Below, piece after piece: positions 1 through 33,106 of a DNA stretch of 45,932 nucleotides; position 1 is the first letter of the stretch; every line of letters starts with the position of its first letter. The notes under the pieces were generated by a model. That model was not told where the DNA came from. It searched no databases and saw only the letters and a program-made list of their open reading frames with translations. The stretch is from Candidatus Omnitrophota bacterium (GTDB lineage: Bacteria > Omnitrophota > Gorgyraeia > Zapsychrales > Fredricksoniimonadaceae), in NCBI GenBank assembly GCA_903944345.1, contig CAJARJ010000018.1, positions 1 to 45,932 on the forward strand, in the 5' to 3' direction. A program made the position numbers and the translations under genes.

Positions 1-3000
1 GGACGCGCTCAGTCGCACCACATCACTCCAGTTAACTCCGGCTTCCGTCAACGACCCCAAATCTGTCCAGTTAACGCCAAAAGCGGTCATCTGCCCAAGA
101 TCGTCCCAATTAACTCCCGCCGCGGTCAACGCCGAAATATCGTCCCAATTAACGACTGCAGTGGAAAGGGAATTAATCCCTGTCCAGTTCACACCGGCAG
201 TCGAGAAAGCCTGCAGATCGATCCAGTTGATCCCGGAATCAAAAACAGTTTCTACTGTATTCCAGTTTATGCCCGCTGAAGATAAGGACTGAATGTCCTG
301 CCAATTAATTCCAACCGAAGAGAGCTCGAGCACGTTAGTCCAATTGATGCCTTGCCCGGAAAGAGTTTGCAAATCGGTCCAGTTAACGCCTTGTTCCGAT
401 ATAGAAGCAATATCCGTCCAGTTAATGGCCGATTCACTTAAAACATTAACCGCTGTCCAATTGATTGAAGAGTAGCTTTGCGCTGCAAAATCGGTCCAGT
501 TAATACCCGACAAGGAAAGAGACTGCAGATCATTCCAGTTAATCCCCTGCTCGCTTATATGACCCAATTCAAGCCAGTTAATGCCACCAGCACTCAGGCT
601 GGCAAAATCGATCCAATTGATACCCGCATCAGTAAGCGCTCCCACATCAAGCCAGTTGATGCCGGCGGAACCAAACGAAACCAGGTCTGTCCAGTTTACA
701 GCGGACTCGCTTAAAGTTTGCAAAGCTGACCAGTTAATCCCTGTCCCGCTCAATGTCTGCAGGTCCTGCCAGTTTAATCCGGAAACAGAAAGACGCCCCA
801 CATCCGTCCAGTTAATCCCGGATGCCGTTAGGGCTGAAACATCCGACCAGTTGACGCCTGCCTCGAAGAAAGATCCAAGATCGATCCAGTTTATGCCGGC
901 AGAAGAAAAAGCATCCAGATCCTGCCAATTCATTCCGGTCAGTGTCATTTCTCCCAGGTCAATCCAGTTAACACCCGCCGCCGTCAAGGAAGAAACGTCC
1001 GTCCAGTTAACACCGGCCGCGGTTAAGCCGGAAACGCCTGTCCAGTTAATACCGGAGGAAGCAATAACCGAAAGGTCGCTCCAGTTAACACCGGCAGAAC
1101 TCAAATCGAGAATATCGGTCCAATTGATGCCTGAGGAAGATAAAAGCTGGACATCCGACCAATTAATACCGTTGGAGGAAAGCCGCTCGAGGTCTGTCCA
1201 GTTGAGACCCGAAACGCTAATAGTCTGCAGATCATTCCAGTTGATACCCTGTAAAGACAGCGCTTCTATATCCTGCCAGTTAACTCCGGCCTGGGTCAAA
1301 GAAGTAAAATCCTGCCAGTTCAAGCCGGCATCTGTCAATTCCGAAACATCTGTCCAGTTAATACCGGCGGCCGAAAACTCCTGAACGTCGGTCCAGTTAA
1401 TGCCGGATGAAGTTAAAGACAATAAATCCGTCCAGTTAATGTCGGCGTCAGCCAGAACCGCCAGCTCCGACCAATTTAATCCGGCATCGGTAATTGCGCC
1501 AACATCTTGCCAGTTCACCCCGGCAAGAGACAGTTCCGAAAAAGACATCCAGTTGATATTTTGTTGACTTAAAACCGCAATATCATTCCAGTTGACCAAA
1601 GCCCCCGTGATCACATCCAGATCAGTCCAGTTAACCCCGGCGGAGGCAAGCTCGCTTAATTCGGTCCAGTTGATGCCGGATTGAGCTAGACCTGCCAGAT
1701 CGGTCCAATTGATTGCTGTTGCGCTCAAACGTGAAAAATCTGTCCAGTTAATCCCTGCCTGGGAGAAAGTCTGGATATCATCCCAGTTAACTCCGGCCTG
1801 AGCCAGCGTGCTGATATCGTTCCAGTTGATCCCGGTCACGGAAAATCTTTCGACATCCGCCCAGTTAATTCCTGACTGTGAAAAAGACTGCAAGTCATCC
1901 CAGTTAAGAGCCGCGGTGGATAAAGAAGACACGTCATCCCAATTAACTCCCGCCAGCGAGAAACTCTGAATGTCTGTCCAGTTAACTCCGGCCAGGCTTA
2001 AAGCGCTGACAACATCCCAGTTGACGGCTGAATGCGTGAAAACACCAAGGTCACTCCAGTTGAGCGCGGCGACGGTTAATTCTCCCAGGTCTTCCCAATT
2101 GACACCGGAGAGAGAAAGTCGTTCAAAATCCTGCCAGTTAAGACCGCTGGCGGTAAAAGTTGCCACATCCGACCAGTTAAGACCACTGCGGCTCAATTCG
2201 CCAATGTCCTGCCAGTTGACCTGATTATCGGCCAGCGTCTGCAAATCGGTCCAGTTAATGCCTGTCGCGGACAAGCGGCCAATATCGGTCCAGTTAACCC
2301 CGGCGGCAGAAAAAGCTGCCAGATCAGACCAGTTAAGGGAAGCGGCCGTTAATTGCTGCAGATCGGTCCAATTAATGCCGACCCCGGTTAACGCTTCCAG
2401 GTCAGCCCAGTTAATCGAAGAAACCGTCAGTCCGGCAAGATCGGTCCAGTTAATATTATTAAGAGAAAGCGCTTCAATGTCCGTCCAGTTGATCCCGGCA
2501 ACTGTCAAGGACTCGAGCGCCACCCAGTTAACGCCACTGGCCGCAAGATGACCAACATCCTGCCAGTTCACTCCGGCTGAAGCCAGGGACCCGACATCGG
2601 TCCAGTTGATGCCTTCGTCCGAAAACCGGCCGACGTCCACCCAATTGATCCCTGCCGCCGATAAAGACTGGACATCCGTCCAGTTAACCGCCAGAGAAGA
2701 CAAGAAAGACATATCCTGCCAGTTAATCCCCGCCTGGGTCAAACCCAGCAAATCCTGCCAGTTAACGGCAAGCGTTGAGAGGGTCTCGAGATCTGTCCAA
2801 TTGATGCCGCTGGCGGAAAGAACAGCCACATCCTGCCAGTTAAGACCCTCGGCACTCATTGAGGCGAAACTGCTCCAGTTAATGCCGGCTGCGGAGAGTG
2901 CCACAAAATCCTGCCAGTTAAGACCAGAGGAGGAAAATGTTTCCAGATCCGCCCAATTAAGCCCCGCCTGGCTGAACTGCTGAATGTCGGTCCAGTTAAT

Positions 3001-4149
3001 GCCCTGAACTGTCAGCCTTTCAACATCAAGCCAGTTAATGCCATTATTGGCCAGCGTCCCTACGTCGGTCCAGTTAATACCGGCGGCTGACATATCGGAA
3101 AAATCTACCCAGTTAAGACCGGTAGAAGAAAGGGCGCCGATATCCTGCCAGTTGACACCTGCCAGAGACCACTGCGCCATATCAGTCCAGTTAACGCCGT
3201 TTTGCGAAAGCGCAGAAAAATCCTGCCAGTTAATGCCCGCCTCGGAGAAAGCCTGCAGATCAGTCCAGTTAACACCAGTTACTGAAAGCGCCTCGACATC
3301 CGACCAGTTGATGCGGCTGCTGCTCATGCGCTGCAAATCGGTCCAGTTAATGCCGGCGGCAAAAACAGCATCCAGATCAGTCCAGTTTAAACCGGCGTCC
3401 GACAGCTCGGCAACATCAGTCCAGTTAATGCCGGCGGCAGAAAAAGCCGAAATATCCGCCCAGTTGATCCCGGCGGAAGCCATGGCCTCCAGCGCGCCCC
3501 AGTTAATGCCGGCAAGGGTCAGTTCGCCGATGTCCGTCCAGTTAAGACCTTGCGCCGAAAGTACCCCCAGGTCTATCCAGTTAATCCCGGCCGAAGAAAG
3601 CTGGCCAAAATCAACCCAGTTAAGCCCACTGGCCGACAAAGAACCAAAATCGGTCCAGTTGATACCCGCCATGGTCAAAGCTTCAAGGTCGGTCCAGTTA
3701 AGACTGGCCTCGGACATGGCATTTAGATCATCCCAGTTAATGTTGGCGGTGGTCAGCACGGCCAGACTATCCCAGTTCACCCGATCCGGCCAATTAACAC
3801 CGGAACCGGTCATGATGGCAAAATCGTCCCAGTTGATGCCCGCCCCCGCGAGATAGTCGAGCTCCTGCCAGTTTATGCCAGTTGAGGCCAGTTCGGCGAT
3901 ATCGTTCCAGTTGATGCCCACGCCCGCCAGGGAACTGATGTCGTACCAGTTAATGGATAAATCGGTCATCAACCCCAAATCAGTCCAGTTAACGCCGCTG
4001 TCGGTCAGCAGTTCGACATCCGTCCAGTTGATGCCCGAGAGCGTCATGGAATAAATATCCTGCCAGTTGATGCCGGCCTGGGAGAGAACATCAATCTCCG
4101 CCCAGTTGACCGTGGCATTGCTCATATTATCAATACCCAGCCAGTTAAT
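1..4149 (-). repeat. Tandem array of 39-bp / 13-residue NW units (107 in this block)
   Basis: Read on the minus strand, the unit is [IVLM]-N-W-x-D-[LIVF]-x-x-[LMFI]-[ST]-x-x-G. The block holds 105 complete 13-residue units, one 6-residue stub (VNWPDR, near 3780-3797) and a last unit cut by the edge after 12 residues; these lengths sum exactly to 4149 bases. Trp is invariant, Asp occupies position 5 in about five units of six, and Gly occupies position 13 in about four of five. Upstream (4150-4317) lie three looser units of 15, 15 and 26 residues, one with DW instead of NW. Copies differ freely at third codon positions and at variable residues, so this is an old array held by selection and not a fresh slippage product. 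Confidence 0.95.
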
Positions 4150-5235
4150 ATCACTGCCCACAGCAGGAAGGACGGATTTAATATCCGCAACATTGCTGAC
4201 CAGCGTATCGATGTCGTTCCAGTCGATAGTGTCTGTCTGAGCCTCAATATCCGCAATGTCGGTCCAGTTAATAGCATCGGTTTTCGCTTTGATGGCCGCT
4301 ATGTCACTCCAGTTCACATCATCCAGAGAACTCAATGTGTGCTTAATTAGTTCAAGAGGGGCATAGGCAGAGAATCCCCGGGTGGAAAAATCGTAGATTG
4401 AGAAGTCTATAAAATAAGAACTGGACTTCTGAGCTGAACTTGGAGACCATCCCTCTGTTGGAGCACACCAATCTTTACTATCGTTTAAGGTAAAATGAAC
4501 TGTGTGTACAACTGCACCTGTTGAATCATATATGTACCCGTCTTCATCCCCTAAAAGCTCCTTAGCGCATTTGTCCGCTGTCTCTAGATCAACACGTTCG
4601 TCATCAGTTTGCAACCATGTGTAAATAAAATATTTTTCCTCTCCAGCATCCCACAACGCAGCAACCTTGGGGCCCGTGCCGGGGAAAACATCAAAGGGAT
4701 CAGATACTGCATAACCCAAAGAAGAGGTTTCGGCTTTGAGGGTATACGCTGAGCCGGCCCGGCCAATCTTGAGGCCTGAAAAGCTGGCCAGACCATTAAC
4801 CACCTGCAAAGCTGTAGTTCCTTCAAGCGTACCGGCACCAGGATTGTTCTGGATAGTCAAGGTGATGGTGGTGGAATTATCCGAGGTCACGATATTGTCG
4901 TTAGCATCAAGAATAGCCACTACCGGCTGACGGTCAAAAGCATTGATGTGCTTGACGCTGGAAGGCGATACGAGAAAAGCGATATGTGTGGCTTCTCCGT
5001 GCGCGAGCGAGGAGGCATCAGTTGAAGAACTGCCGGTGGAAGAGTTGGCACCGCCAGTGTAAATGTCGCTGCCGATCGTGGCTTCGGCACTGCCCGAACC
5101 AGAGCCGCCAGAGTACTGAGCCCAAGACGCGCCCGCACCCAAAACGGCAAGCATCATCGCTGCCACTACAAACAGTCTGGCTGCAACAAGGCTTAAGGGC
5201 ATAGAGAGTAGTTTTTTACAGTTATAATATGACAT
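1..5235 (-). CDS. Giant secreted 13-residue-repeat protein, 5' part; runs off the left edge
   Basis: The reading frame is open from ATG 5235 to the window edge (1745 codons, no stop), so the C-terminus is outside. Counting from ATG 5235, residues 1-39 form a signal peptide (basic KK, a hydrophobic core around LFVVAAMMLAVLG, cleavage after ASWA). Residues 40-82 are a Gly/Ser-rich linker. Residues about 85-185 resemble the Ig-like domains of bacterial surface proteins (ILDANDNIVTSDNST, VNGLASFSGLKIGRAG). Residues about 186-305 form an unrecognised domain with two Cys (DKCAK, DWCAP). From residue 307 on there are 110 NW motifs, almost all in strict 13-residue units of pattern [IVL]NWxD[LIV]xxL[ST]xxG. 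ATG 5202 is in frame, gives a compact 28-residue signal peptide, and is the alternative start; neither start has a clear Shine-Dalgarno site. A promoter lies just upstream. The next genes upstream are two secreted SUMF-fold proteins and a secretin. Secretion is well supported; function is unknown. Confidence 0.88.
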   Translation of the reverse strand, partial: MSYYNCKKLLSMPLSLVAARLFVVAAMMLAVLGAGASWAQYSGGSGSGSAEATIGSDIYTGGANSSTGSSSTDASSLAHGEATHIAFLVSPSSVKHINAFDRQPVVAILDANDNIVTSDNSTTITLTIQNNPGAGTLEGTTALQVVNGLASFSGLKIGRAGSAYTLKAETSSLGYAVSDPFDVFPGTGPKVAALWDAGEEKYFIYTWLQTDDERVDLETADKCAKELLGDEDGYIYDSTGAVVHTVHFTLNDSKDWCAPTEGWSPSSAQKSSSYFIDFSIYDFSTRGFSAYAPLELIKHTLSSLDDVNWSDIAAIKAKTDAINWTDIADIEAQTDTIDWNDIDTLVSNVADIKSVLPAVGSDINWLGIDNMSNATVNWAEIDVLSQAGINWQDIYSMTLSGINWTDVELLTDSGVNWTDLGLMTDLSINWYDISSLAGVGINWNDIAELASTGINWQELDYLAGAGINWDDFAIMTGSGVNWPDRVNWDSLAVLTTANINWDDLNAMSEASLNWTDLEALTMAGINWTDFGSLSASGLNWVDFGQLSSAGINWIDLGVLSAQGLNWTDIGELTLAGINWGALEAMASAGINWADISAFSAAGINWTDVAELSDAGLNWTDLDAVFAAGINWTDLQRMSSSRINWSDVEALSVTGVNWTDLQAFSEAGINWQDFSALSQNGVNWTDMAQWSLAGVNWQDIGALSSTGLNWVDFSDMSAAGINWTDVGTLANNGINWLDVERLTVQGINWTDIQQFSQAGLNWADLETFSSSGLNWQDFVALSAAGINWSSFASMSAEGLNWQDVAVLSASGINWTDLETLSTLAVNWQDLLGLTQAGINWQDMSFLSSLAVNWTDVQSLSAAGINWVDVGRFSDEGINWTDVGSLASAGVNWQDVGHLAASGVNWVALESLTVAGINWTDIEALSLNNINWTDLAGLTVSSINWADLEALTGVGINWTDLQQLTAASLNWSDLAAFSAAGVNWTDIGRLSATGINWTDLQTLADNQVNWQDIGELSRSGLNWSDVATFTASGLNWQDFERLSLSGVNWEDLGELTVAALNWSDLGVFTHSAVNWDVVSALSLAGVNWTDIQSFSLAGVNWDDVSSLSTAALNWDDLQSFSQSGINWADVERFSVTGINWNDISTLAQAGVNWDDIQTFSQAGINWTDFSRLSATAINWTDLAGLAQSGINWTELSELASAGVNWTDLDVITGALVNWNDIAVLSQQNINWMSFSELSLAGVNWQDVGAITDAGLNWSELAVLADADINWTDLLSLTSSGINWTDVQEFSAAGINWTDVSELTDAGLNWQDFTSLTQAGVNWQDIEALSLQGINWNDLQTISVSGLNWTDLERLSSNGINWSDVQLLSSSGINWTDILDLSSAGVNWSDLSVIASSGINWTGVSGLTAAGVNWTDVSSLTAAGVNWIDLGEMTLTGMNWQDLDAFSSAGINWIDLGSFFEAGVNWSDVSALTASGINWTDVGRLSVSGLNWQDLQTLSGTGINWSALQTLSESAVNWTDLVSFGSAGINWLDVGALTDAGINWIDFASLSAGGINWLELGHISEQGINWNDLQSLSLSGINWTDFAAQSYSSINWTAVNVLSESAINWTDIASISEQGVNWTDLQTLSGQGINWTNVLELSSVGINWQDIQSLSSAGINWNTVETVFDSGINWIDLQAFSTAGVNWTGINSLSTAVVNWDDISALTAAGVNWDDLGQMTAFGVNWTDLGSLTEAGVNWSDVVRLSAS

Positions 5236-5378: not shown

Positions 5379-7007
5379 TTACATAGCGGTCCGGACAAAA
5401 CGGGCTCCGCAAACCACCCCGTAACCGGAGTCGAAACGGCGCAAATATCCTTGCGTATCAGGGTCTTTGGCCGCGAAAATACGGGACGAAACCTGGAAAT
5501 GCCGGACGCTGGCGGAAAGAAAATCGCCCCCACGGTAGCCAATGCCTTTGGTGGAGGTGACCCCACGACGGGCATCCTGCCCATCAATCCCGGGCCAGTC
5601 CACATTGCTAGCGTTTCCTTCAAAGCCGGAAACCATTGTTAACTCGCCGTCTCCGTGCGTTCCTAAAAACTGGCGGCCTTCTGCGCGCCCCAAAGTTACG
5701 GCCGGTTCGGCCACATTGCCGGAAAGCTCCATATTACCGTAATAACCGGCTCCGCTGGTGACCCGATTTGTCGAATTCTCGGCAAAGATACCCACACGTA
5801 ACGCACCTTTTTGCCCGGCTGCCGGGCCACCGGCACGGCCATCTCCGGAGGACCACCCCAAAGAGTTGCGGTTAAGGTTAGCTGTACCGTCAAAAATCGC
5901 TTCCTGACCGGACTCATCCTGATTGGGAGGATAGATCTCTCCGGCTTCAGCCGCTTTGTAAGTTGCACTACCCCAGGCAAATTCGTCTGCAACCGAAGGA
6001 ATATCCACTCCCCGGGCCGCTTTCTCATACTCAAGTTCGGTCATGGGACGCAAGGCAGCCCAATCGGCAAACGCGGCGGCATCCGGCCAGGAGATATACG
6101 TCATGGCGCGATCGGGACGCAGGCTGAGTGCCCGGGAAACCGGAACAGTCGAATCCCAGGCAAGAGTATTGCGGTCAATAATAGTGTCCGCGCCTTTACC
6201 CCCGTCGACAGAAGAGGTAATGTCCCGGCGCAATCGCGCGGCAAGGGGTAAAGTGTTGAAGAATCCGGCCCATTGGCCTTCGGTTAACTCGTATTTCATC
6301 ACATAAAAGGCACGGTGACCTTTGGGAAACGAATTGGACAAAAGAAAAATATCCCCTGAAGCGTTTTCACCGGCAGCACCAGTAGACACATAATATGCTC
6401 CGCCTGAGGCAGAAGCTGTTGTCGTAATGGCGTTTTCATTCGCGATATACCAGGGAGTTGAATCGGCGGAACCCTGCTGAAGACGAAAATCGGAAGAACT
6501 CTCCCCGTCACCGGCAAAAAAGCCGCCTTCGGGGATATAGACCATTTCAACCCCGTAAACCCTGGTGAGAGTGTTGGCGGCTGCGGCCGTCGCATCGGAA
6601 AGGCCATCCTGTCCGTAATTCCAGCGCAATTGCACAGCCTGAGCCGAAAAGTTTCCGGTACCCGATAAAGAACGGCGGAAAAAAAGACCTTTCATGTCGT
6701 CAGGAATAAGAATTTCAAAACCGGCAGGAGCGGAAAAACCGGCAGGATTGCTGCCCTTGCCCGCCCAGGTGGCATGACGCCAGGTTTGTCCGGCATCAGT
6801 CGAATATTTCATAAAAACCCATACCGCATCGTGCGATGTGTCGTTGCGCCAGGAATTGGACTGGGAAATATCCATTTGCAGGGTCATGGTATGTGTCGCA
6901 GGATCAATGGCCACAGCATCAAAACGCGTCAGCTGGAGATTATTGGCCCGAGCAGCAGAAGAAACAACAAGAAGCAAAACCAAGATAAAAAACACTTTTA
7001 TCCGCAT
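5379..7007 (-). CDS. Secreted SUMF1/FGE-fold protein, copy 1
   Basis: The 542-residue product has a signal peptide (residues 1-21, cleavage near ARA/NN) and an N-terminal beta-rich domain to about residue 150 (SWRNDTSHDAVWVFMKYS). A SUMF/formylglycine-generating-enzyme fold follows (VEMVYIPEGGFFAGDG, MKYELTEGQWAGFFN, RPMTELEYEKAARG, FAWGS, LSGNVAEPAV, YRGGDF). The copper-binding Cys pair that true formylglycine-generating enzymes carry after the GGS motif is absent; the only Cys is near the C-terminus (VVCGARF). It is therefore more likely a binding or structural member of this fold than a sulfatase activator. It is paralogous over its whole length to the gene at 7039-8619, 31 bases upstream. 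No clear ribosome binding site precedes ATG 7007. The location should be periplasm or cell surface. Confidence 0.85.
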   Translation of the reverse strand: MRIKVFFILVLLLVVSSAARANNLQLTRFDAVAIDPATHTMTLQMDISQSNSWRNDTSHDAVWVFMKYSTDAGQTWRHATWAGKGSNPAGFSAPAGFEILIPDDMKGLFFRRSLSGTGNFSAQAVQLRWNYGQDGLSDATAAAANTLTRVYGVEMVYIPEGGFFAGDGESSSDFRLQQGSADSTPWYIANENAITTTASASGGAYYVSTGAAGENASGDIFLLSNSFPKGHRAFYVMKYELTEGQWAGFFNTLPLAARLRRDITSSVDGGKGADTIIDRNTLAWDSTVPVSRALSLRPDRAMTYISWPDAAAFADWAALRPMTELEYEKAARGVDIPSVADEFAWGSATYKAAEAGEIYPPNQDESGQEAIFDGTANLNRNSLGWSSGDGRAGGPAAGQKGALRVGIFAENSTNRVTSGAGYYGNMELSGNVAEPAVTLGRAEGRQFLGTHGDGELTMVSGFEGNASNVDWPGIDGQDARRGVTSTKGIGYRGGDFLSASVRHFQVSSRIFAAKDPDTQGYLRRFDSGYGVVCGARFVRTAM

Positions 7008-7038: not shown

Positions 7039-8619
7039 TTATGATTCATCACCGGAACGCACACCGCGGCCACCGACGGACGATGTTGCAGAATCATCGG
7101 CGAGCGCCGCACGGGAACGATCGGAAACCGCAAGAAAAACAGCAGCATCGGCCCAGCTGCCGGCACGCAACCCGGAGCCAGCTGAAGAAACGACTCCCCT
7201 GGCGGCATCCTGGTCAAGGCCGGGCCAGGAGGTGGTATTGGCGTTACCTTCAAAACCCGACAGCGTGGTCAGCTGTCCGTCACCATGCAGTCCGTTAAAA
7301 TTCAGGCCCGCCGCATTGCCAATGGTAACCACGCGTTCGCTTACATTGCCGGACAAATCCATAACACCATAGGCACTGCCGCCGGAAAAAACCCGGTCGG
7401 AGGTGGCTGTGGCAAAAATACCGCCACGCATTGGCCCCTTGCGATGCTCGGCTCCCAGGGCTTCGTCTCCGCCGGAAAGAAGAACGGATGAAAAATGCGC
7501 ATTGGCCGCAGGCGTTAAAATAGTTTCTTCGCCGGATTCCTCGGTGGTGCCCGAAACAAGCTGGGCGGCAACCAGATCTGTATTTCCCCAGGCGTATTCG
7601 CCGGCTGAAGCCAGGAAAGGTCCGCGAGCCGCTTTTTCGAACTCCAGTTCGGTCATGGGGCGCAAGGCAGCCCAGTCAAGAAAAGCGCATAAATCCATCC
7701 AGGTCAAATAGGTCATGGCCCGGGCAGGCCGCGCGCTTGAACACGTCAAGGGCTGCCCCGAACAGGCCACTGTATTACGAAAAAGAACAGCGTCGGAATT
7801 TTTGTGCGCCGTATCCGTTACATCCCTGCGCCCACGAGCCGAGGAAGGCAGCGAATTTAAAAACTCGACCCACTGGCCCTCGTTAATTTCATACTTCATG
7901 CAATAAAAAGACCGGTAGCCTTTGGGATAAGCCTGGGGGATTGTAAAAGCAAAACTCGTGGCAAATTCGCCAGCATTGCCTGCGGAGACATAAAAATAGC
8001 CCCCAGAAACAGCCGCAGAAACACCAACAGGTGCTTCAGAGGTAATGCGCCATGACGAACTATCCGCCGAGCCCTGTCTAAAGGAAGCAGCAGAAATGCC
8101 GTCACCGGCATAAAATTCTCCCTGGGGAACAAGAACCATTTCCAGACCAAAAACAGAAACACTTATTTCGGAGGATTCCGTAAAACCAGCGGCGGCATAA
8201 TCGAGGGTCAGCATAATGTTTTTCGACGAAACAGCTGCCGGAGACGTATTAGCTGATCTGCGGATAAAAGCTCCGGCTTTGTCGGCGGGAACATAAACTT
8301 CGAGGTCTGTTCCGCTGCCCGTTCCGGATCCAGACGGATTTAACCCTGCCGCAGTTAAAGGAACCAGTGTTTTTGCAGATGCGGGATCTCCGGAATCGCT
8401 TAAACGAACGGTGAGCCAGACGGCATCATGATTAATCTTGTTGCGCCACGAATTATCCCAGGCAAGATCAAACAAAACGGAAACTGTCTTGGCCTTGGTA
8501 TCCCGCAGTCCAAGCCTGACATTGGAAACGGAAAGATTATTGGCAAAAAGAGCGCCGGGGAGAAAAAGAAAACCAAGAAATACAATACAAAGCGAAAAGG
8601 CAATTGCTCTTGTATTCAT
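7039..8619 (-). CDS. Secreted SUMF1/FGE-fold protein, copy 2
   Basis: The 526-residue product starts at ATG 8619, chosen because AAGGAG lies 6 bases before it and a clean signal peptide follows (hydrophobic core to ALFA/NN). It has the same layout as its neighbour: an N-terminal domain with SWRNKINHDAVWLTVRLS, then a SUMF fold from about residue 158 (LEMVLVPQGEFYAGDG, MKYEINEGQWVEFLN, RPMTELEFEKAARG, YAWGN, LSGNVSERVVTIG, LRAGSW). There is no Cys in the C-terminal third and the usual GFRC-type ending reads GGRGVRSGDES, so classical formylglycine-generating activity is unlikely. The pair looks like a tandem duplication. Co-transcription with the secretin genes upstream is likely because no promoter is visible in the 59-base gap. 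Confidence 0.86.
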   Translation of the reverse strand: MNTRAIAFSLCIVFLGFLFLPGALFANNLSVSNVRLGLRDTKAKTVSVLFDLAWDNSWRNKINHDAVWLTVRLSDSGDPASAKTLVPLTAAGLNPSGSGTGSGTDLEVYVPADKAGAFIRRSANTSPAAVSSKNIMLTLDYAAAGFTESSEISVSVFGLEMVLVPQGEFYAGDGISAASFRQGSADSSSWRITSEAPVGVSAAVSGGYFYVSAGNAGEFATSFAFTIPQAYPKGYRSFYCMKYEINEGQWVEFLNSLPSSARGRRDVTDTAHKNSDAVLFRNTVACSGQPLTCSSARPARAMTYLTWMDLCAFLDWAALRPMTELEFEKAARGPFLASAGEYAWGNTDLVAAQLVSGTTEESGEETILTPAANAHFSSVLLSGGDEALGAEHRKGPMRGGIFATATSDRVFSGGSAYGVMDLSGNVSERVVTIGNAAGLNFNGLHGDGQLTTLSGFEGNANTTSWPGLDQDAARGVVSSAGSGLRAGSWADAAVFLAVSDRSRAALADDSATSSVGGRGVRSGDES

Positions 8620-8678
8620 GCTGCTCCTTGAAACAGGTCGGAAATATAACGGAAATCTTATTCTTTTATGAAAGAAAA

Positions 8679-9497
8679 TCAACGGGCAATATTCTGGTGA
8701 CCCGTTTGCTCCGGCTTGTCAATTCTGGAATCCACCTTGCTTCTGGAGTGAAGTCTGGCCACAACCATCTTCTCCTCGACGAGCTTGCGATCCCTGGCAT
8801 CCGGCTTGAGATACAGATACCATTGATAATGCTTGAGCGCCGTGGACTGGTCTCCAAGAAATTCGCCGCTGACAAAAGCCAGATTGTAATGAGCATCCGG
8901 GTCATAGGGCAGCAAATCCACAGCCTGGTAATATTCAACAACCGCACGCTGATATTCGCCGCGCTCGAAGTAAACATTGCCCATGTTGTAATGTGCCCTG
9001 GCCAACTCTTCCTTGAACTTTTCGTCTTCAGGGTCCAAATCTCCACCCTTCATAAAGACTTCGTTGGCCCGCTTTTCGATTTCCATAAAAGAAGGAGCAT
9101 CTGTCTTGATCGCAGCATCCGGTGCTTGTGGAGCCTTGCGGGTAGACACCATATCAGTTTCCATTTTTTTAAGACGAGCCTCAAAGGAATCCTGCTGGGC
9201 CAAGAGCTGCGACCGGACAGACTCGATTTCTTTGGTGTACTTCTGGTTCAGATTTTCGACCCGGCGAATTTCTTTTACAAACTGTTCACGCTCCGCACGC
9301 ATTTCCTCAACGCGTTTGGCTTCAAAAGCTTTCTCGTCCTTGAGCCGCTCAATCTCTGCCTGCAGGGACTTGACATCGCCCTGTGCATCGGCAGACACGG
9401 CAGATTGCGCCTGGCAAACGCCAGCAAAGAAGAAAACCCCCGAGGCAAAAACACCGGACAGTGTTAGGGTCATGAGTGTCTTCAGGGAAATCTTCAT
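8679..9497 (-). CDS. Secreted coiled-coil/TPR protein
   Basis: The 272-residue product starts at ATG 9497, with GGAG 9 bases upstream; an in-frame ATG at 9530 would add 11 residues and touch the secretin stop. It has a signal peptide (MKISLKTLMTLTLSGVFAS..., cleavage near CQAQS). A long charged coiled coil follows at about residues 40-115 (AEIERLKDEKAFEAKRVEEM). Residues about 150-235 hold two or three TPR units (ARAHYNMGNVYFERGEYQRA, VEYYQAVDLLPYDPDAHYNL). Soluble coiled-coil/TPR proteins next to secretins often help assemble or stabilise the secretin; here that is inferred from position only. It lies between the secretin and the SUMF pair. Confidence 0.82.
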   Translation of the reverse strand: MKISLKTLMTLTLSGVFASGVFFFAGVCQAQSAVSADAQGDVKSLQAEIERLKDEKAFEAKRVEEMRAEREQFVKEIRRVENLNQKYTKEIESVRSQLLAQQDSFEARLKKMETDMVSTRKAPQAPDAAIKTDAPSFMEIEKRANEVFMKGGDLDPEDEKFKEELARAHYNMGNVYFERGEYQRAVVEYYQAVDLLPYDPDAHYNLAFVSGEFLGDQSTALKHYQWYLYLKPDARDRKLVEEKMVVARLHSRSKVDSRIDKPEQTGHQNIAR

Positions 9498-9529
9498 AAA
9501 AGGCATCTCCAGAAAGTTTGCGTTAAGCA

Positions 9530-11134
9530 TTAATTATAGGCTTTGGCCGGTTTAATCGTCCCGTCAGCAGCCTTGTAGTTTTCTTTTCCGGTCATGATAT
9601 GCGGAGTAATGAATATCACGATTTCCGAAGACGTCATGGTGTCACCCTCGGCGCTGAAGGCTTTACCGATAAAAGGCACATTCATAAGAAGAGGAAGACC
9701 TTTTTTGGTGCGAACCTTGTCGTCCTTGCGAAGTCCCGCCATAATAATAGTGGTGCCGTCCTCAACCACCAGCGCAGTTTCGACTTCAGTTTTATTAACC
9801 TGCGGAATACCTCCCGAATTCTCGGAGTTCAAGCGACCGACAACCGAAGATATCTCGGGACGCAGGCGCATGGTGACCATGCCGTCGTCGTTGATCGTTG
9901 GCATTACGTTCAGCTTTAAACCTACGTCAATAAAGCGGACATCTTCGCTGCGGATGGCATTATCTCCAGTTCCGGAAACAGTGGTAATGATATAGGGAAC
10001 AGTGTCGCCTATGTGAATCCTGGACTCCTCGTTATTGACCGCAAGTATCTGCGGATTGGACAGGATTTTTGTATCACTGACACCTTCCAGCGCCCGTAAT
10101 CCCAGGACAAAATCATCCACATTGACTTTTCCGACGGCAATCTCCCCGAACCCACTGTACAGGTTGTTGGAAGCCGTCAGACTGGATTTGTTCAGGTAGG
10201 TGTTGCTGACCCCGATCAATCCTTTTTCAGAATTGCTGTTATTGTTGGTCATGTAAGACCAGTCGATACCTGCATCGTAAGTCGGCTTGAGGATAACCTG
10301 CAAAATACGGGCTTCGATGAGAACTTCTTTGGTTGGCTCATCCATGTGACGGATAATCTTTTCGATTTCTTCCCTGCGGGCAGGAAAAACACGGACAATA
10401 AGCTGGTTGGAACGCTCGTCGGCAGTAATCGAGCCTACGGCCTTGGCATCAATGCGCATTCTTAACTTGTCGGCCAGAACATCCGCTTTGGCGTATTGCA
10501 AATTATAAACAATCGTTTCCAGAGGCTGTTCAATCTCGGCAATCACTTTTTTCATTTTCTCGATAGCTTCCGGGGTGTCGATCAGCACCACCGAGCCGGT
10601 GTCTTCGTCGATAACAATCTTGCCGATATTGCTTTTAACATTGTCCAGCGCGGCCAGAACATAACTCGGCTTGGAATACTGCAGGCGCAGCGTAACGGCC
10701 TGGGTCTTGTCGCCAAACTGCCTGCCGAAAGCCGCTTCGTACTCCGCCGCAGTCATGACCTGAACAATGTCGTTATGAATCTGATAGGCAAGCCGGTTAG
10801 AGATGACCACAATATCCAAAGCATCCTTGATGGCGACATTATCGAGCAGAACCGTTGATCTTCCCTCGATAAACGGGCTGATCACCACATTAAATTCACC
10901 CTTGGTGGCAAGAAATTTGACGATGTCCACAATGTTCATGTCGCGCACGTCCAGCGCGATCTTGCGCCCGAGCCGGTCAGCCATGCTTTCTTTCGGCTCG
11001 GTGAGCAGAATAGGTTTTGGCGACTGCCCCTGAGCCTGCGCAAAGACATGAGTCCCCGGTGCAAAACAGGACATCAGAAAAACAGTCAATAACATTCCGG
11101 CCGGTCTTGGGGAAGAAAATTTGTAGGGTATCAT
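9530..11134 (-). CDS. Outer-membrane secretin (GspD/PilQ family)
   Basis: The 534-residue product has a signal peptide (to about residue 34, HVFAQA). An STN/N0-type domain follows (about 58-130, KIALDVRDMNIVDIVKFLAT), then two small N1-like domains (about 145-200 and 205-272, ending EKIIRHMDEPTKEVLIEARI). The secretin barrel domain covers about 275-515 (SDTKILSNPQILAVNNEES, VETALVVEDGTTIIMAGL, LPLLMNVPFIGKAF, SSEIVIFITPHI). Secretins form large gated outer-membrane channels in type II secretion and type IV pilus machines. At 534 residues it is on the short side, with fewer N domains than a typical GspD. It overlaps the GspC-like gene by 4 bases (ATGA), so the two are translationally coupled. 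No ATPase, pilin or inner-membrane platform gene is in the window, so the system type is open. Confidence 0.92.
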   Translation of the reverse strand: MIPYKFSSPRPAGMLLTVFLMSCFAPGTHVFAQAQGQSPKPILLTEPKESMADRLGRKIALDVRDMNIVDIVKFLATKGEFNVVISPFIEGRSTVLLDNVAIKDALDIVVISNRLAYQIHNDIVQVMTAAEYEAAFGRQFGDKTQAVTLRLQYSKPSYVLAALDNVKSNIGKIVIDEDTGSVVLIDTPEAIEKMKKVIAEIEQPLETIVYNLQYAKADVLADKLRMRIDAKAVGSITADERSNQLIVRVFPARREEIEKIIRHMDEPTKEVLIEARILQVILKPTYDAGIDWSYMTNNNSNSEKGLIGVSNTYLNKSSLTASNNLYSGFGEIAVGKVNVDDFVLGLRALEGVSDTKILSNPQILAVNNEESRIHIGDTVPYIITTVSGTGDNAIRSEDVRFIDVGLKLNVMPTINDDGMVTMRLRPEISSVVGRLNSENSGGIPQVNKTEVETALVVEDGTTIIMAGLRKDDKVRTKKGLPLLMNVPFIGKAFSAEGDTMTSSEIVIFITPHIMTGKENYKAADGTIKPAKAYN

Positions 11135-11748
11135 AGCTTGATAACCATCTCCTCGTTTTCGTGACCAACAACGACCCTGTCAGTATAAATGGTCTTGATG
11201 GTCACATCCTCGATTTTGTCGCCTTCTTTCAGAAACCTGGTGACGCCGCTCGAAACTTCCTCGATCATAACCGTGGCTGATTCGGGAACATCCAGCCAGG
11301 CCACTCCGACGAGCTTGTAATTCTTCATCCGTTTGTCAAGCTCAGCTTTGGCATTGGTCTCGCCGTTTGCAGAAGCAGCGGTCTTTTCGTAAGGCCTGAA
11401 TATATTTCTTTGCGCAACTTTGCCGAGATAGTATTCGGAATCCCTGGACGGGGAAGATTTTAACCCGTTATCATTGGCACGAACCGCCGCCGCATCCTCA
11501 ATGTCGAGTTCTTCCCGCAGGAGAGAAACCCCGCTGACAATTTCCTGGCCGAGATAAACAAGACTGGCAATCACAGCCACAAGCATAACCAGATTAAGAT
11601 GTTTAAGACCCGGAACGAAACGCCGACCAGAAGGCTTGGGGGCCACCACCGGAGCTGCCGGAGCATTAGCCAAAGCTACGGCTTGAGCCTTTTTAGTGGT
11701 CTCAATAATCCTTAAAAGTTTTTGTTCGGCAGTTTCTTTGGCTGACAT
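11131..11748 (-). CDS. GspC/PilP-like inner-membrane secretion protein
   Basis: The 205-residue product has a cytoplasmic N-terminus with an Ala/Pro stretch (residues about 25-42) and a single membrane segment at about 52-72 (LVMLVAVIASLVYLGQEI). The periplasmic part carries a homology-region-like motif (YYLGKVAQRNIFRPY) and a small beta domain at the C-terminus (YKLVGVAWLDVPESATVMIE, FLKEGDKIEDVTIKTIYTDR). This is the layout of GspC/PulC, which links the inner-membrane platform to the secretin, and the downstream secretin overlaps it by 4 bases. The family assignment rests on layout and motif, and PilP is a possible alternative. The 93-base gap before it holds no convincing promoter. Confidence 0.75.
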   Translation of the reverse strand: MSAKETAEQKLLRIIETTKKAQAVALANAPAAPVVAPKPSGRRFVPGLKHLNLVMLVAVIASLVYLGQEIVSGVSLLREELDIEDAAAVRANDNGLKSSPSRDSEYYLGKVAQRNIFRPYEKTAASANGETNAKAELDKRMKNYKLVGVAWLDVPESATVMIEEVSSGVTRFLKEGDKIEDVTIKTIYTDRVVVGHENEEMVIKL

Positions 11749-12810: not shown

Positions 12811-13169
12811 GATTTTGTGTTTCGCATGATTTCTTTCAGACGATCCAGTTCAAGACCGAGCAAGCCTATTTGCTGGGCCATACGGTCGTTGCGCCGGTTC
12901 TGCTGGCACAGAAAAACAGTAAGCAGAAGACAGACAAAAACAAAAGTCCCCAGAAGAACAAAGAAAATGAAATTGCTGGGCACCTCAAAACCGATCAGCC
13001 GGGAAACAAAAAACAACTGCTGGCTGAAAAGGCAGCAGCACATCCCCGAAACAGCCACAAAAAACCAGATAAACGCATACTTGAAAGAAAGTTTCTCCCG
13101 GCGCACAAGCTCAAGAACAAAAAGAAAAACGCCAGCAGACAAAATAAAGGCCAGAACTTTTATTCCCAT
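12807..13169 (-). CDS. DUF2304-type small membrane protein
   Basis: The 120-residue product has three membrane segments (about 3-20, 30-52 and 63-90) and a short polar C-terminal helix (NRRNDRMAQQIGLLGLELDR), with the pattern LSFKYAFIWFFVAVSGM typical of DUF2304. Members of this family nearly always sit beside a polyprenol-phosphate glycosyltransferase, and this one overlaps such a gene by 10 bases and another GT2 gene by 4. A role as membrane partner of the DPM1-like enzyme is inferred from that association. Confidence 0.82.
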   Translation of the reverse strand: MGIKVLAFILSAGVFLFVLELVRREKLSFKYAFIWFFVAVSGMCCCLFSQQLFFVSRLIGFEVPSNFIFFVLLGTFVFVCLLLTVFLCQQNRRNDRMAQQIGLLGLELDRLKEIMRNTKS

Positions 13170-13882
13170 GGGCCAAAAACCTTTCTGTCCTTGAACATAT
13201 CCAGCATGATCGCCGCCGTAACCTTAAGCATGTAATAAGGAGATTTGAGCTTACCAATCGAGCTGCGCCCGGCACTGCGGGCACGCATCAGAACCGGAAC
13301 CTCCCGCACCACAGCCCCGAGGCGGCGGGCAATCACAATAGCTTCCGGTTCAGGAAAATCATTGGGATAATGCGCGGCAAACAACCGGATAAGCCTGGGG
13401 CCGCAGCCACGAAAACCGGAGGTGGGATCAGTGCAGCGCAACCCGGTCAGCAACCGGATAAGCGTAACAAAAAAAAGTATCCCCACGCGACGGGAGAAAG
13501 AAGAACGGAAACCGCCTTTCTCGCCGGCAAAGCGGCTGCCGACAACCATATCCGCCTCCCCGCGCAACAACGGGGTCAGCATGGCGTCCAGAAAACGGGG
13601 GTCATGCTGGCCGTCACCGTCGATCTGGACAGCGATGTCATAACCATTACGCTCGGCCCAGCGATAACCGGTTTGAACCGCGCCTCCAATGCCGAGATTA
13701 AACGGAAGCCGAACCACCTGTGCTCCGGCACCTGACGCCCGCAAGGCGGTATCATCCAGAGAGCCGTCATCCACAACCAGAACCGAAACATCCTTTCTGG
13801 CGGCAAAAATTTCCCGAATCACTCCGGCAATGCTTCCCGACTCATTAAAGGCCGGAACAATAACCAGTACCCGCGCTTTCAT
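13160..13882 (-). CDS. DPM1-like polyprenol-phosphate glycosyltransferase (GT2)
   Basis: The 240-residue product starts at ATG 13882, chosen because AGGA lies 3-4 bases before it; a longer frame to 13915 would overlap the previous gene further. GT2 motifs are VLVIVPAFNESGSIAGVI, VLVVDDGSLDDTA, the loop FNLGIGGAVQTGYRWA and the metal-binding VQIDGDGQHDP (residues about 86-96), with VVGSRF after it. This pattern is typical of dolichyl/undecaprenyl-phosphate mannosyl- or glucosyltransferases that make lipid-linked sugar donors at the inner membrane. There is no C-terminal membrane domain, so the DUF2304 partner may supply the membrane part. It overlaps the delta-like gene upstream by 4 bases (ATGA). 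Confidence 0.9.
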   Translation of the reverse strand: MKARVLVIVPAFNESGSIAGVIREIFAARKDVSVLVVDDGSLDDTALRASGAGAQVVRLPFNLGIGGAVQTGYRWAERNGYDIAVQIDGDGQHDPRFLDAMLTPLLRGEADMVVGSRFAGEKGGFRSSFSRRVGILFFVTLIRLLTGLRCTDPTSGFRGCGPRLIRLFAAHYPNDFPEPEAIVIARRLGAVVREVPVLMRARSAGRSSIGKLKSPYYMLKVTAAIMLDMFKDRKVFGPWE

Positions 13883-14241
13883 GCTTCCTCCCTGCCTTGA
13901 AGCCGCCGGAACCAAAGCGCCAGGCTATGATCCAGAACCACCGCCCCGGCCTGCAATATAACGCCACCGCCCAGCTCCCTGTTCTCGAGGAAATTTACCG
14001 GGACACTCCCAAACCTTTGTCGGACGGCCTGAGTCCAGGACTCCTTTTGCCGCAGAGAAAGCCGGGAGGCTGTAACGATATTGACCTGATCAACCTGATC
14101 CTGCCCGGGGGCAAGGCGCAGTTCGGCAAACTTTTCCAGCGCCACAGACAAGAGTTCCTTCTGCAAAACAATCCACAGCAAGAAGAAGACCGGGACCACG
14201 AGCAACGCCTGCAACAAAAGCACTTTGACCATGACGTCCAT
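13879..14241 (-). CDS. Small membrane protein with ATP synthase delta (OSCP)-like domain
   Basis: The 120-residue product starts with one membrane segment (residues about 5-26, KVLLLQALLVVPVFFLLWIV) and a short linker. Residues about 50-115 match the C-terminal half of ATP synthase delta/AtpH: NIVTASRLSLRQKESW corresponds to the family's V-x-SA-x-xLSxxQ, and GGGVILQAGAVVLDHSLALW to the GGV-x-x-x-xG-x-xV-x-DxS signature. The helical N-terminal domain of delta, which binds the F1 alpha subunits, is missing and a membrane anchor takes its place, somewhat like a minimal subunit b-delta fusion. No other ATP synthase gene is in the window; the neighbours are an S41 peptidase homologue and glycosyltransferases. 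The gene is 4 bases from the S41 stop and overlaps the next gene by 4. Function is unproven. Confidence 0.68.
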   Translation of the reverse strand: MDVMVKVLLLQALLVVPVFFLLWIVLQKELLSVALEKFAELRLAPGQDQVDQVNIVTASRLSLRQKESWTQAVRQRFGSVPVNFLENRELGGGVILQAGAVVLDHSLALWFRRLQGREEA

Positions 14242-14245
14242 AATT

Positions 14246-15523
14246 CTATTGCCCTTTTAACAAAAGGTAACGGGCCGCCAGAAACACAGCCTTGTCCTTG
14301 TGCTCGGGCCCCATCTCCTCGTCGGGATGGACGCCGTCAAAAGGAAAAGGCCTGCCGTTGGGGAAATGTCCCCGGGCCACCACCATGGCCAGAGTCGAGC
14401 CATCGGAAAGATCAAACAGGCTCTTGAGCAAAACCTGTCCAGCGGTTGCTTCGCCAAGAACCACAGCCCTGCGACGGTCCTGCATAACCCCGGAGAAAAG
14501 TTCGGACGCGCTTCCGGTCATCTTGTCCACCAGGATGACCAAAGGCCAGTCGAAATGAAAGGCTTGCGGGATAGCCGGAATATCCAGATCCGCCCTGGGG
14601 CGATTCTTGCCGGCAAAATAGACCAAAGGCTCTCCGTTGGGAAGAAAAAAAGCGGAGATAGCCCGGGCCGCCAGAGGCGGACCTCCGGGATTTCCGCGAA
14701 GATCCAGCACCAGACCCTTGGGCTGGGACCCGGCCAGCTGCGAAAGAAAATGCAGCATATCGTCGGGCGTTCCCTGGTTAAACTTCTCGATCTGCAGACA
14801 ATAAATATCGGCAACACCTGTCGGCCGCTGAAAGACAGTTTGCTTGAAATACTCGCGGCTCTCCACAACAATTTCAAAAGGCCTGCGGCTGACAGCCTGG
14901 ATAAAGGACAATCTGGTCTTTTCTCCCACCAGCGGATTAAGCCGGTCAAGCACTTCTTCCTGCGTCATGGTGTCAATCTCTTTCTCGTCGATACGCAACA
15001 AAAAGTCGCGCTCCCGCAGGCCCTGGCCATACGCATCGGAACGCGGCTCGACAAAATCTACCGCAAAGCCGGGTCCCTCACGATGCCCCTCGATGCCAAG
15101 ATCAATCTTCTGCCCGTAAACTTCTTTGGCAAATTCTTCGGCGGGCTTGGGAGGAAGAAAGCGGGAAAAAAAATCATCCGGCTGTTTCAGAAAATCCACC
15201 AGATAGGCGCTACTGCGCCAACGAACATAATCGACACTTTTTTGTTCCAGCAAAAGATTCGGATATATTTTTTGTTCAAACGCCTGGAGAAACCGCTCGA
15301 AATCGCGCTGCTCGATATCGAAGTAATAATGCTCGGACATGAGCTGAAAAACTTCCCTGAAATAGGCAACATACCGGGCATAATTTTCCGCATCACCCGA
15401 GGCTGAAAGAGCCGAGGAAGACTGCGCCCCTGCAGATTCCCGAGGGGGGAAAGAACATAAACACGCCCCGATCAGCACGATAAAAATAAAATTCTGCATT
15501 CCTGCAGCTCTCTCAGAGATCAT
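14246..15523 (-). CDS. S41 (C-terminal processing) peptidase homologue lacking the catalytic Lys
   Basis: The 425-residue product starts at ATG 15523, with GAGGA 7 bases upstream; ATG 15499 (MQNF) is a possible later start. A hydrophobic export signal (NFIFIVLIGACLC) may be a signal peptide or a weak lipobox. A PDZ-like domain follows at about residues 145-235 (GLRERDFLLRIDEKEIDTMT). The S41 domain comes after it (GLVLDLRGNPGG, FDWPLVILVDKMTGSASE, MQDRRRAVVLGEATAG). In Prc/CtpA the nucleophile Ser is followed 11 residues later by Asp and 25 residues later by Lys. Here Ser and Asp are kept, but the Lys position (codon 14435-14437) is Gln. It may be an inactive chaperone-like member, or use another Lys such as the one four residues on. 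It ends 4 bases before the delta-like gene. Confidence 0.85.
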   Translation of the reverse strand: MISERAAGMQNFIFIVLIGACLCSFPPRESAGAQSSSALSASGDAENYARYVAYFREVFQLMSEHYYFDIEQRDFERFLQAFEQKIYPNLLLEQKSVDYVRWRSSAYLVDFLKQPDDFFSRFLPPKPAEEFAKEVYGQKIDLGIEGHREGPGFAVDFVEPRSDAYGQGLRERDFLLRIDEKEIDTMTQEEVLDRLNPLVGEKTRLSFIQAVSRRPFEIVVESREYFKQTVFQRPTGVADIYCLQIEKFNQGTPDDMLHFLSQLAGSQPKGLVLDLRGNPGGPPLAARAISAFFLPNGEPLVYFAGKNRPRADLDIPAIPQAFHFDWPLVILVDKMTGSASELFSGVMQDRRRAVVLGEATAGQVLLKSLFDLSDGSTLAMVVARGHFPNGRPFPFDGVHPDEEMGPEHKDKAVFLAARYLLLKGQ

Positions 15524-15533
15524 CAGAATGTCC

Positions 15534-16208
15534 TCAAAAGTCCTGTTGCACTCCGGCCTGCTGCCCCCCGGATACCCGGGAAAAAGTCCCACTCACAGCC
15601 TCGATAATTTCCAACCGGCTCACAGGAATATTGACCACAAAATCGGCATGCGAACGACTTTTTCTGTATTCGGGCATCCTGGCCGGCATTTTCAGATAAC
15701 GCGTAACAAGAGACAAATCAAAATTATAAAGAATGGTGCCGTGATGCAGCAGAAAAACCCTCCCGCGACGCTGGGCATTCCCGGAAAACTTGCGCTCGGT
15801 TCCGGCCAGCACCAGATCACAAACCGGACGGAATTCAGCCGGTATCTGCAAGGATTGCAACGCCGCCAGAATCTGGTCAAGAATATACCGGTAAGAACGA
15901 TTGATGAGTGACAACTCAGGACGCAAATTCCTGGAAAGCACCAACGCAAAATTAAGGCAGCCCGGCCCCTGCACCACCGTTCCTCCGCCGGAAGAACGCC
16001 GCAGGACAGGAACCCCGTCCGCTTGTGCCGTGTTAACATCGACATCCTGATCCATTTCACCGGACCGGCCCATAACCACAAACACTGACGGCGACTCCCA
16101 GAAACGCAGGACTTCCCCCGCCTGGCCGCTTTCGGCCGCACAAAGCATCTGATCGTCCTGCTGCAAATTGGTTAACGGATCATCAAAAGAAATGTCCCGT
16201 ATTATCAT
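15534..16208 (-). CDS. lplA: Lipoate-protein ligase A family
   Basis: The 224-residue product belongs to the biotin/lipoate ligase fold: PVLRRSSGGGTVVQGPGCLN is the lipoate-binding loop and ERKFSGNAQRRGR carries the conserved Lys. These are followed by HHGTILYNFDLSLVTRYLKM and the PEYRKSRSH segment. LplA-type enzymes attach lipoate (or, for LipM-like members, octanoate) to the Lys of GcvH and the 2-oxoacid dehydrogenase E2 proteins. It overlaps the stop of gcvPB by 4 bases (ATGA) and so belongs to the glycine cleavage operon, with GcvH three genes upstream as its probable substrate. At 224 residues it lacks the C-terminal accessory domain of E. coli LplA, so it may need a partner or use octanoyl-ACP. 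Confidence 0.87.
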   Translation of the reverse strand: MIIRDISFDDPLTNLQQDDQMLCAAESGQAGEVLRFWESPSVFVVMGRSGEMDQDVDVNTAQADGVPVLRRSSGGGTVVQGPGCLNFALVLSRNLRPELSLINRSYRYILDQILAALQSLQIPAEFRPVCDLVLAGTERKFSGNAQRRGRVFLLHHGTILYNFDLSLVTRYLKMPARMPEYRKSRSHADFVVNIPVSRLEIIEAVSGTFSRVSGGQQAGVQQDF

Positions 16209-32888: not shown

Positions 32889-33003
32889 TGTTCCGCGGGT
32901 AACATGTTGTTTTTCCAGAAAACGAAAGAATATCCCGGTACAAGAAATAAGCGAACGGAAATGATGACCAGGCGCATACTTGAATGCCGTCGAAAGCGGA
33001 TGT

Positions 33004-33009
33004 ATTCTA
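33004..33009 (-). promoter_or_regulatory. Extended -10 promoter candidate for the TPR gene
   Basis: On the minus strand TGC directly precedes TAGAAT (five of six matches to TATAAT), an extended -10 element. The start would be near 32997, giving a leader of about 108 bases before ATG 32888. No good -35 box is seen. It lies in the largest gap of the window. Confidence 0.45.
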
Positions 33010-33106
33010 GCACAGCACCCAAAACATCTTCTACAATTTTCTGCCATATTTTATCCCGGATCATTCTTTAGGAAAATAAAGTCCGGTCACGCAGATCCTG
33101 GTCGCG

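Follow-up and report, generated by a model that had tools for sequence, protein, structure and literature searches.

Candidatus Omnitrophota carry "symbiotic" loci in which F-type ATPase and type 4a pilus genes are found together and which have been tied to symbiosis (Seymour et al. 2023; PMC10066038). In the part of that paper drawn on here, attachment and motility are proposed as roles for these loci, giant open reading frames (ORFs) are described as well, and the Omnitrophota alpha subunits are reported to cluster with the type 2 and type 3 F1-like ATPases of Mycoplasma (PMC10066038). In Mycoplasma mobile, the type 2 F1-like ATPase works with the giant surface proteins Gli349 and Gli521, and in the MIB-MIP system the activity of the type 3 F1-like X0 ATPase is required for function (PMC7052211, PMC12994834). 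Here we describe a giant gene whose N-terminal half lies in a 45,932-nucleotide stretch of a Candidatus Omnitrophota genome (assembly GCA_903944345.1, contig CAJARJ010000018.1, called C18 below, forward strand from base 1), which we refer to as the window. The gene encodes a long array of 13-residue, tryptophan-anchored units and belongs to a cluster that combines F1-type ATPase genes with genes of the type II secretion system (T2SS) and type IV pilus (T4P). The cluster type is already published (Seymour et al. 2023; PMC10066038), and the membership of the giant gene in the cluster is firm. We give an even chance to the reading that its product is a long exported fibre, tethered at its C terminus, that belongs to a T2SS/T4P-like machine equipped with F1-type ATPase genes, and that it serves in attachment or surface movement.

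How regular is the array? From residue 307 of the ORF (window position 4317) to the end of the contig we counted 110 anchors, 109 of them Asn-Trp (NW) and one Asp-Trp, with Trp in 110/110, as claimed in a preliminary description of the window. That description had also spoken of 13-residue units whose lengths sum exactly to the length of the array. The unit length holds for all but a few units near the array start (105 spacings are exactly 13 residues), whereas the exact sum masks four irregular spacings in that region (two of 15, one of 26 and one of 6). Shuffling the residues themselves gave a mean of 9.5 NW (maximum, 20) and at most one spacing of 13, compared to the 109 NW observed. All 105 regular units are distinct from each other in DNA and in protein, Ser10 of the unit uses six of six codons, and the differences between units are highest at codon position 3 and lowest at position 2. 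For these three reasons the array represents neither assembly stutter nor recent expansion, and its differences fit old selection acting at the protein level.

The array had been described as not ended in the window, and the reason is that the window opens at the first base of contig C18. When the genome was searched at the DNA level, contig C9 was the only other place with the repeat. Contig C9 terminates in the array in the matching direction and carries 118 anchors, followed by a 230-residue helical tail ending VVIKTWFESEE and the stop codon; the leftward extension of the gene proposed earlier accordingly leads to the array end and the C-terminal half. In one relative, G011, the entire gene is found on a single 104-kb contig as an open frame of 10,972 residues (∼10,958 from the first Met). 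The G011 giant has ∼800 units, with 789 spacings of exactly 13 and the register held throughout, and it is flanked on one side by genes like those of C18 and on the other by genes like those of C9. Because the whole gene of G011 sits between the same two flanks, we infer that C18 and C9 each carry half of a single gene, which encodes at least 3,516 residues, the gap between the contigs not counted.

The flanking genes are conserved on both sides. The C-terminal loci (25/25 read) comprise the giant, a gene designated D442, F1 alpha, OSCP/b-delta, gamma and beta, GspE/PilB and GspF/PilC, shortened only by contig ends. In the present genome, C9 continues with genes for GspG, an N-methyl pseudopilin and GspK-like, PilM/PilN-like and GspM-like proteins. 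The major pseudopilin GspG passes its curated model (TIGR01710, 144 bits versus a cut-off of 88.85), and the GspK-like protein scores 70 bits against an NCBIfam cut-off of 130 and is above the cut-off of Pfam T2SSK_1st. Among the N-terminal contigs with flanks, GspC, secretin and TPR genes precede the giant in 10/11, the eleventh (G006) beginning in an FGE-sulfatase gene. These contigs also carry an S41 peptidase, a GT2 glycosyltransferase and usually two FGE-sulfatase proteins ahead of the giant; G039 gave no FGE match, and the G053 contig consists of array only. The secretin of the window scores 242 bits as PilQ and 216 bits as GspD (GspD cut-off, 351), both under the curated cut-offs. As in the published F-type ATPase/type 4a pilus loci of Omnitrophota, F1 alpha and beta are found near a pilus-family ATPase, a platform protein and a secretin; in the present locus the two blocks sit on opposite sides of the giant. 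An STT3-type oligosaccharyltransferase gene is found near the cluster (L058:9757-12258, plus strand), and the giant could be glycosylated.

Related versions of the machine carry other giants. A paralogous cluster (G000:C1:47823-75499; L145-L147) contains genes for a GspC-like protein, secretin, TPR protein, giant, half-length D442, F1 subunits, GspE and GspF, with GspG nearby. Its giant has 4,926 residues (56489-71269, minus strand), ends NNKPVTQVWYEYKE and gives Laminin_G_3 (lectin-like), Kelch and immunoglobulin (Ig)-like domain matches. In ten other genomes (G040, G094, G099, G122, G183, G185, G187, G199, G264 and G387), a giant that covers ∼2,800 to 6,600 residues, or more, of the stretch examined ends in a fused D442-like part that includes a transmembrane (TM) segment; F1 genes are visible in 9/10 of these stretches, that of G099 ending before they could show. 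In G099:C27 (L101), the D442-like segment lies within an 11,907-residue open frame, another D442-fused giant. At the very C terminus, the tail of the NW giants aligns with that of the non-NW giants (hhalign E 3e-5, probability 73%, ∼70 residues). On the basis of the paralogous cluster, the D442 fusions and the tail alignment, we read these loci as one machine type in which the giant appears to vary in its middle and keep its attachment end.

The array profile matches 55/384 Omnitrophota genomes in a patchy distribution: 35 belong to the order of the present genome, a further 6 to its class and 14 to other classes. The named relatives are all metagenome-assembled genomes of Candidatus Omnitrophota/Omnitrophica, in agreement with the phylum suggested at the outset. 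Most assemblies break inside the array, and among the loci read G011 alone spans it. The conserved tail was found in 27/55 genomes searched, the present one included. Strong D442 matches (E below 1e-24, a threshold chosen after viewing the list and counted by hand) occur in 52/384 genomes. Array and strong D442 are both present in 45 genomes, the array only in 10, D442 only in 7 and neither in 322 (Fisher P = 3e-41); for this and for the cluster counts, the genomes are not phylogenetically independent. Outside Omnitrophota, NW arrays were looked for in plasmid, phage and viral collections only: neither the phage collection nor the viral contigs (exact peptide patterns only) gave an array match, and a weak match in the plasmid collection, to Mesomycoplasma hyorhinis, was rejected at 13.6% identity.

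Can the F1 module conduct protons on its own? Between alpha and gamma lie genes for an epsilon-like protein (PF02823), a c-like protein (PF00137), a 76-residue membrane protein and a b-delta fusion. The 76-residue protein (L009:6513-6743, minus strand, between c-like and b-delta) has two helices and no Pfam family, and may be an extra Fo-like part. This 95.5%-complete genome has three F1 alpha/beta clusters (C9, C1 and C5) versus one PF00119 a-subunit gene, at C5:62147-62758 (L142), with none in the giant's cluster. F1 beta retains the Walker A and GERIRE motifs. Because these motifs are kept and the lone a-subunit gene is on C5, the F1 module looks catalytically competent and, as encoded, would have no proton conduction of its own except by borrowing the a-subunit encoded on C5. 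Both alpha and beta score above the curated atpA and atpD cut-offs (519 versus 484 and 526 versus 463 bits). They fall below the cut-offs of the Mycoplasma MMOB1660/1670 and MSC_0618/0619 families, with 386 versus 600 and 286 versus 520 bits for alpha and 411 versus 850 and 380 versus 570 bits for beta. Searched against the PDB, the F1 subunits gave ordinary ATP synthases as their best relatives, so the Mycoplasma motors are not singled out. A D442 copy from a relative was predicted (mean predicted local distance difference test [pLDDT] score, 81) to form two halves, each with a beta-sandwich and a helical hairpin, and C-terminal long helices that include a presumed TM segment; a fold search with D442 gave no credible structural relative.

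The repeat unit itself had been thought to look undescribed. In searches of Pfam, NCBIfam and the PDB with the array, no curated repeat model or solved structure matched, and in the literature covered (open-licence PMC papers, preprints excluded) we found no description of a 13-residue Trp repeat or of its link to the cluster. Pfam matches to 2-Hacid_dh, Ntox33, Pentapeptide, Lysostaphin_N and others were rejected because different arrays pull different unrelated families; the best PDB match was a run of myc tags, and it was rejected together with weak LDL-receptor matches. On window 1-4317, the spurious Pfam matches are nominally significant (2-Hacid_dh and Ntox33, "Bacterial toxin 33"), and giants of this kind could in consequence be wrongly labelled as toxins by automatic annotation. 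Pooling 5,726 units gave the profile [IV]-N-W-x-D-[ILVF]-x-x-[LM]-[ST]-x-[ATS]-G. In this profile N and W come close to 100%, D5 and G13 each reach 83%, and there are several Ser/Thr per unit. The pooled units (∼74,000 residues) contain no Cys and 2 Pro and are strongly acidic (9,566 D+E versus 1,866 K+R). Short helices are commonly capped by an N-cap box, a hydrophobic staple and a C-terminal Gly. The unit pattern fits such a helix, with an N-cap box at Asn2...Asp5, a hydrophobic staple at Ile1-Leu6 and a Gly C-cap. An AlphaFold2 (AF2) model of the array showed a single helix in each unit, with low confidence (mean pLDDT, 46) and in a quality too poor to serve for a fold search.

Ahead of the array, the giant has three further conserved parts (Table 1). 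The signal peptide claimed earlier is plausible by eye, and a similar N terminus recurs in relatives. The proposed Ig-like domain gave no Pfam match at E < 1, although part of it resembles a module in a giant of another genome, G127 (35% identity, E 3e-5). Of the earlier phrase "surface or released protein," export is supported; a surface location is suggested by the signal peptide, the neighbouring genes and the domains of the paralogue.

How might such a protein work as a tethered fibre? The giant would be the dedicated giant component of the machine, exported by Sec. The genes of the machine specify a T2SS/T4P-type apparatus (GspC-like, secretin, GspE, GspF, GspG, GspK-like and PilM/N-like proteins) together with a rotary ATPase module of the F1 type that has a c-like subunit and no a-subunit, and D442 would be a periplasmic linker anchored in the inner membrane. 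Each 13-mer would form one short capped alpha-helix: Asn2 would be the N-cap and Asp5 would complete the capping box, Gly13 would be the C-cap, and Ile1, Trp3, Leu6 and Leu9 would make up the apolar face. Hundreds of helices in strict register would give a long thin fibre, whose conserved C-terminal tail (...VVKTWFESEE) may be held at the cell via D442 while the remainder extends outward through the secretin, as an attachment or "leg" filament contacting surfaces or partner cells. The F1 module would supply force or drive extension; the Mycoplasma type 2/3 systems lend this reading support by analogy.

Four observations weigh against a tethered, motor-driven fibre. Ten NW-positive genomes are without strong D442 and seven have D442 without NW, in part through broken contigs. 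Alpha and beta score as ordinary atpA/atpD, well below the Mycoplasma gliding families, which leaves the absent a-subunit and the neighbourhood as the basis for a motor role. A PilT-type retraction ATPase was not found in the cluster, the genome's only PilT over the cut-off being on contig C16. Finally, AF2 confidence in the array is poor, and the fibre shape is proposed from the unit pattern.

A bolder version of the fibre reading is that these loci encode a new class of envelope motor, in which a rotary ATPase of the F1 type that lacks a proton-conducting a-subunit is set in a T2SS/T4P-type machine and uses D442 to move or reel a tethered filament made of up to ∼800 Trp helices, for host or prey contact or for gliding; this we regard as doubtful, if worth stating. 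Only a little behind it in our estimate, and likewise improbable, is that the giant is passive, a secreted coat of the cell surface or an S-layer-like glycoprotein merely exported by the T2SS-type machine, with the F1 module energising secretion uncoupled from the fibre. The T2SS markers in the cluster, the GT2 and STT3-type enzymes nearby and the several Ser/Thr per unit are what such a coat would share with the locus, but in other families the giant is fused to TM-anchored D442, which suggests a fixed inner-membrane link rather than free secretion, and a coat leaves the F1 genes largely unexplained. We consider it distinctly less probable that the array is a scaffold, spring or ruler in the periplasm or across the envelope, linking F1/D442 mechanically to the secretin and pseudopilus. 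The predicted two-part D442 with its C-terminal TM segment, the signal peptide, the strict regularity of the units and the lack of any recognised outer-membrane anchor would suit a scaffold; however, ∼800 units would likely reach at least hundreds of nanometres, far over the width of the periplasm unless coiled, and the paralogous giant bears lectin-like domains typical of outward-facing adhesins. An assembly artefact, named in the preliminary description as its possible refutation, or an untranslated repeat expansion is scarcely credible: most contigs do break within the array, but each regular unit of the window half is unlike the others in DNA, the codon-position bias points to protein-level selection, and the gene recurs in many independent genomes and is complete on a single contig in G011.

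Table 1. Locations of the giant gene, its parts and its neighbours (window positions unless another locus is named)
Feature	Location	Strand	Remarks
N-terminal half of giant gene	1..5235	minus	ORF from ATG, 1745 residues, open at window/contig start
Array, 110 Trp-anchored units	1..4317	minus	consensus [IV]NWxD[LIVF]xx[LM][ST]xxG
Second conserved N-terminal domain (GTGPKxAAxWD...)	4318..4665	minus	precedes array; conserved in relatives
Probable beta-sandwich (Ig-like) domain	4666..4998	minus	after Gly/Ser-rich linker; kept in N-terminal halves of relatives
Probable Sec signal peptide (MSYYNCKK...AVLGAGASWAQ)	5116..5235	minus	read by eye; similar N terminus in relatives
C-terminal half of giant gene	L009:10126-15441 (contig C9)	minus	1771 residues to stop
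FGE-sulfatase-domain protein 1	5379..7007	minus	PF03781; directly upstream of giant; position conserved
FGE-sulfatase-domain protein 2	7039..8682	minus	PF03781; conserved
TPR/coiled-coil protein	8679..9530	minus	conserved
Outer-membrane secretin (PilQ/GspD type)	9530..11134	minus	PF00263, E 6e-44
GspC-like inner-membrane protein	11131..11748	minus	PF11356, 24.2 bits (cut-off 27); NF041515, 30 bits
GT2 glycosyltransferase	13160..13915	minus	upstream of GspC in relatives too
S41 C-terminal processing peptidase	14246..15592	minus	conserved neighbour in relatives

Two further large genes are found in the window, both on the minus strand. A 1,089-residue protein with no Pfam match (20571-23840) adjoins the glycine cleavage genes gcvT and a two-part gcvP, and a 1,541-residue TPR-array protein (28422-33047) adjoins recO.

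One family of Omnitrophota giants can now be diagnosed by its 13-residue unit; it keeps its C-terminal tail and occupies a fixed position within an F1-ATPase/T2SS-like cluster. The preliminary description could not see the second half of the gene, the surrounding secretion/ATPase cluster or the distribution. The role of giant proteins in small, probably host-dependent bacteria becomes a concrete question about one testable machine, and the unit offers structural work a new short helical repeat.

How does the locus compare with known systems? Like V. archaeovorus and other Omnitrophota giant ORFs, the giant falls in the same size class and phylum and has a supposed surface location. Such ORFs have been described as poorly conserved, with an obscure function, in part because assemblies break inside them. 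In the single-contig 1.97-Mb genome of G127, giants of 3,245 and 4,552 residues with a VVQTW-type tail are found beside D442-like genes, without an NW array; they were rejected as the published 39,678-residue ORF on the basis of these lengths. With the loci of Seymour et al. 2023, as far as the part of the paper drawn on here describes them, the present locus shares the phylum, F1-type ATPase genes beside pilus/secretion genes and a widespread but patchy occurrence (PMC10066038). That part treats giant ORFs and ATPase/pilus loci separately, calls the giant ORFs poorly conserved and contains no NW repeat that we could find (PMC10066038), whereas in the present locus the giant gene holds a fixed position and T2SS markers are also present (GspG over the cut-off and GspK-like). 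Compared to a type II secretion system, the secretin, GspE, GspF, GspG and the GspK-like, GspC-like and GspM-like genes are alike; the interposed F1 module, D442 and giant, the PilM/PilN-like protein and a secretin that scores slightly more as PilQ than as GspD are not. With the Mycoplasma systems the locus shares an F1-type module and large proteins that lie, or here are presumed to lie, at the surface, and MMOB1650 and MMCAP2_0577, with a signal peptide and C-terminal TM segments, invite comparison with D442. The Mycoplasma systems differ in that Gli349 repeats are ∼100 residues long by their published length, compared to 13 here, in that no pilus or T2SS genes are described there, and in that the alpha and beta subunits of the present locus are under the curated cut-offs of the MMOB1660/1670 and MSC_0618/0619 families.

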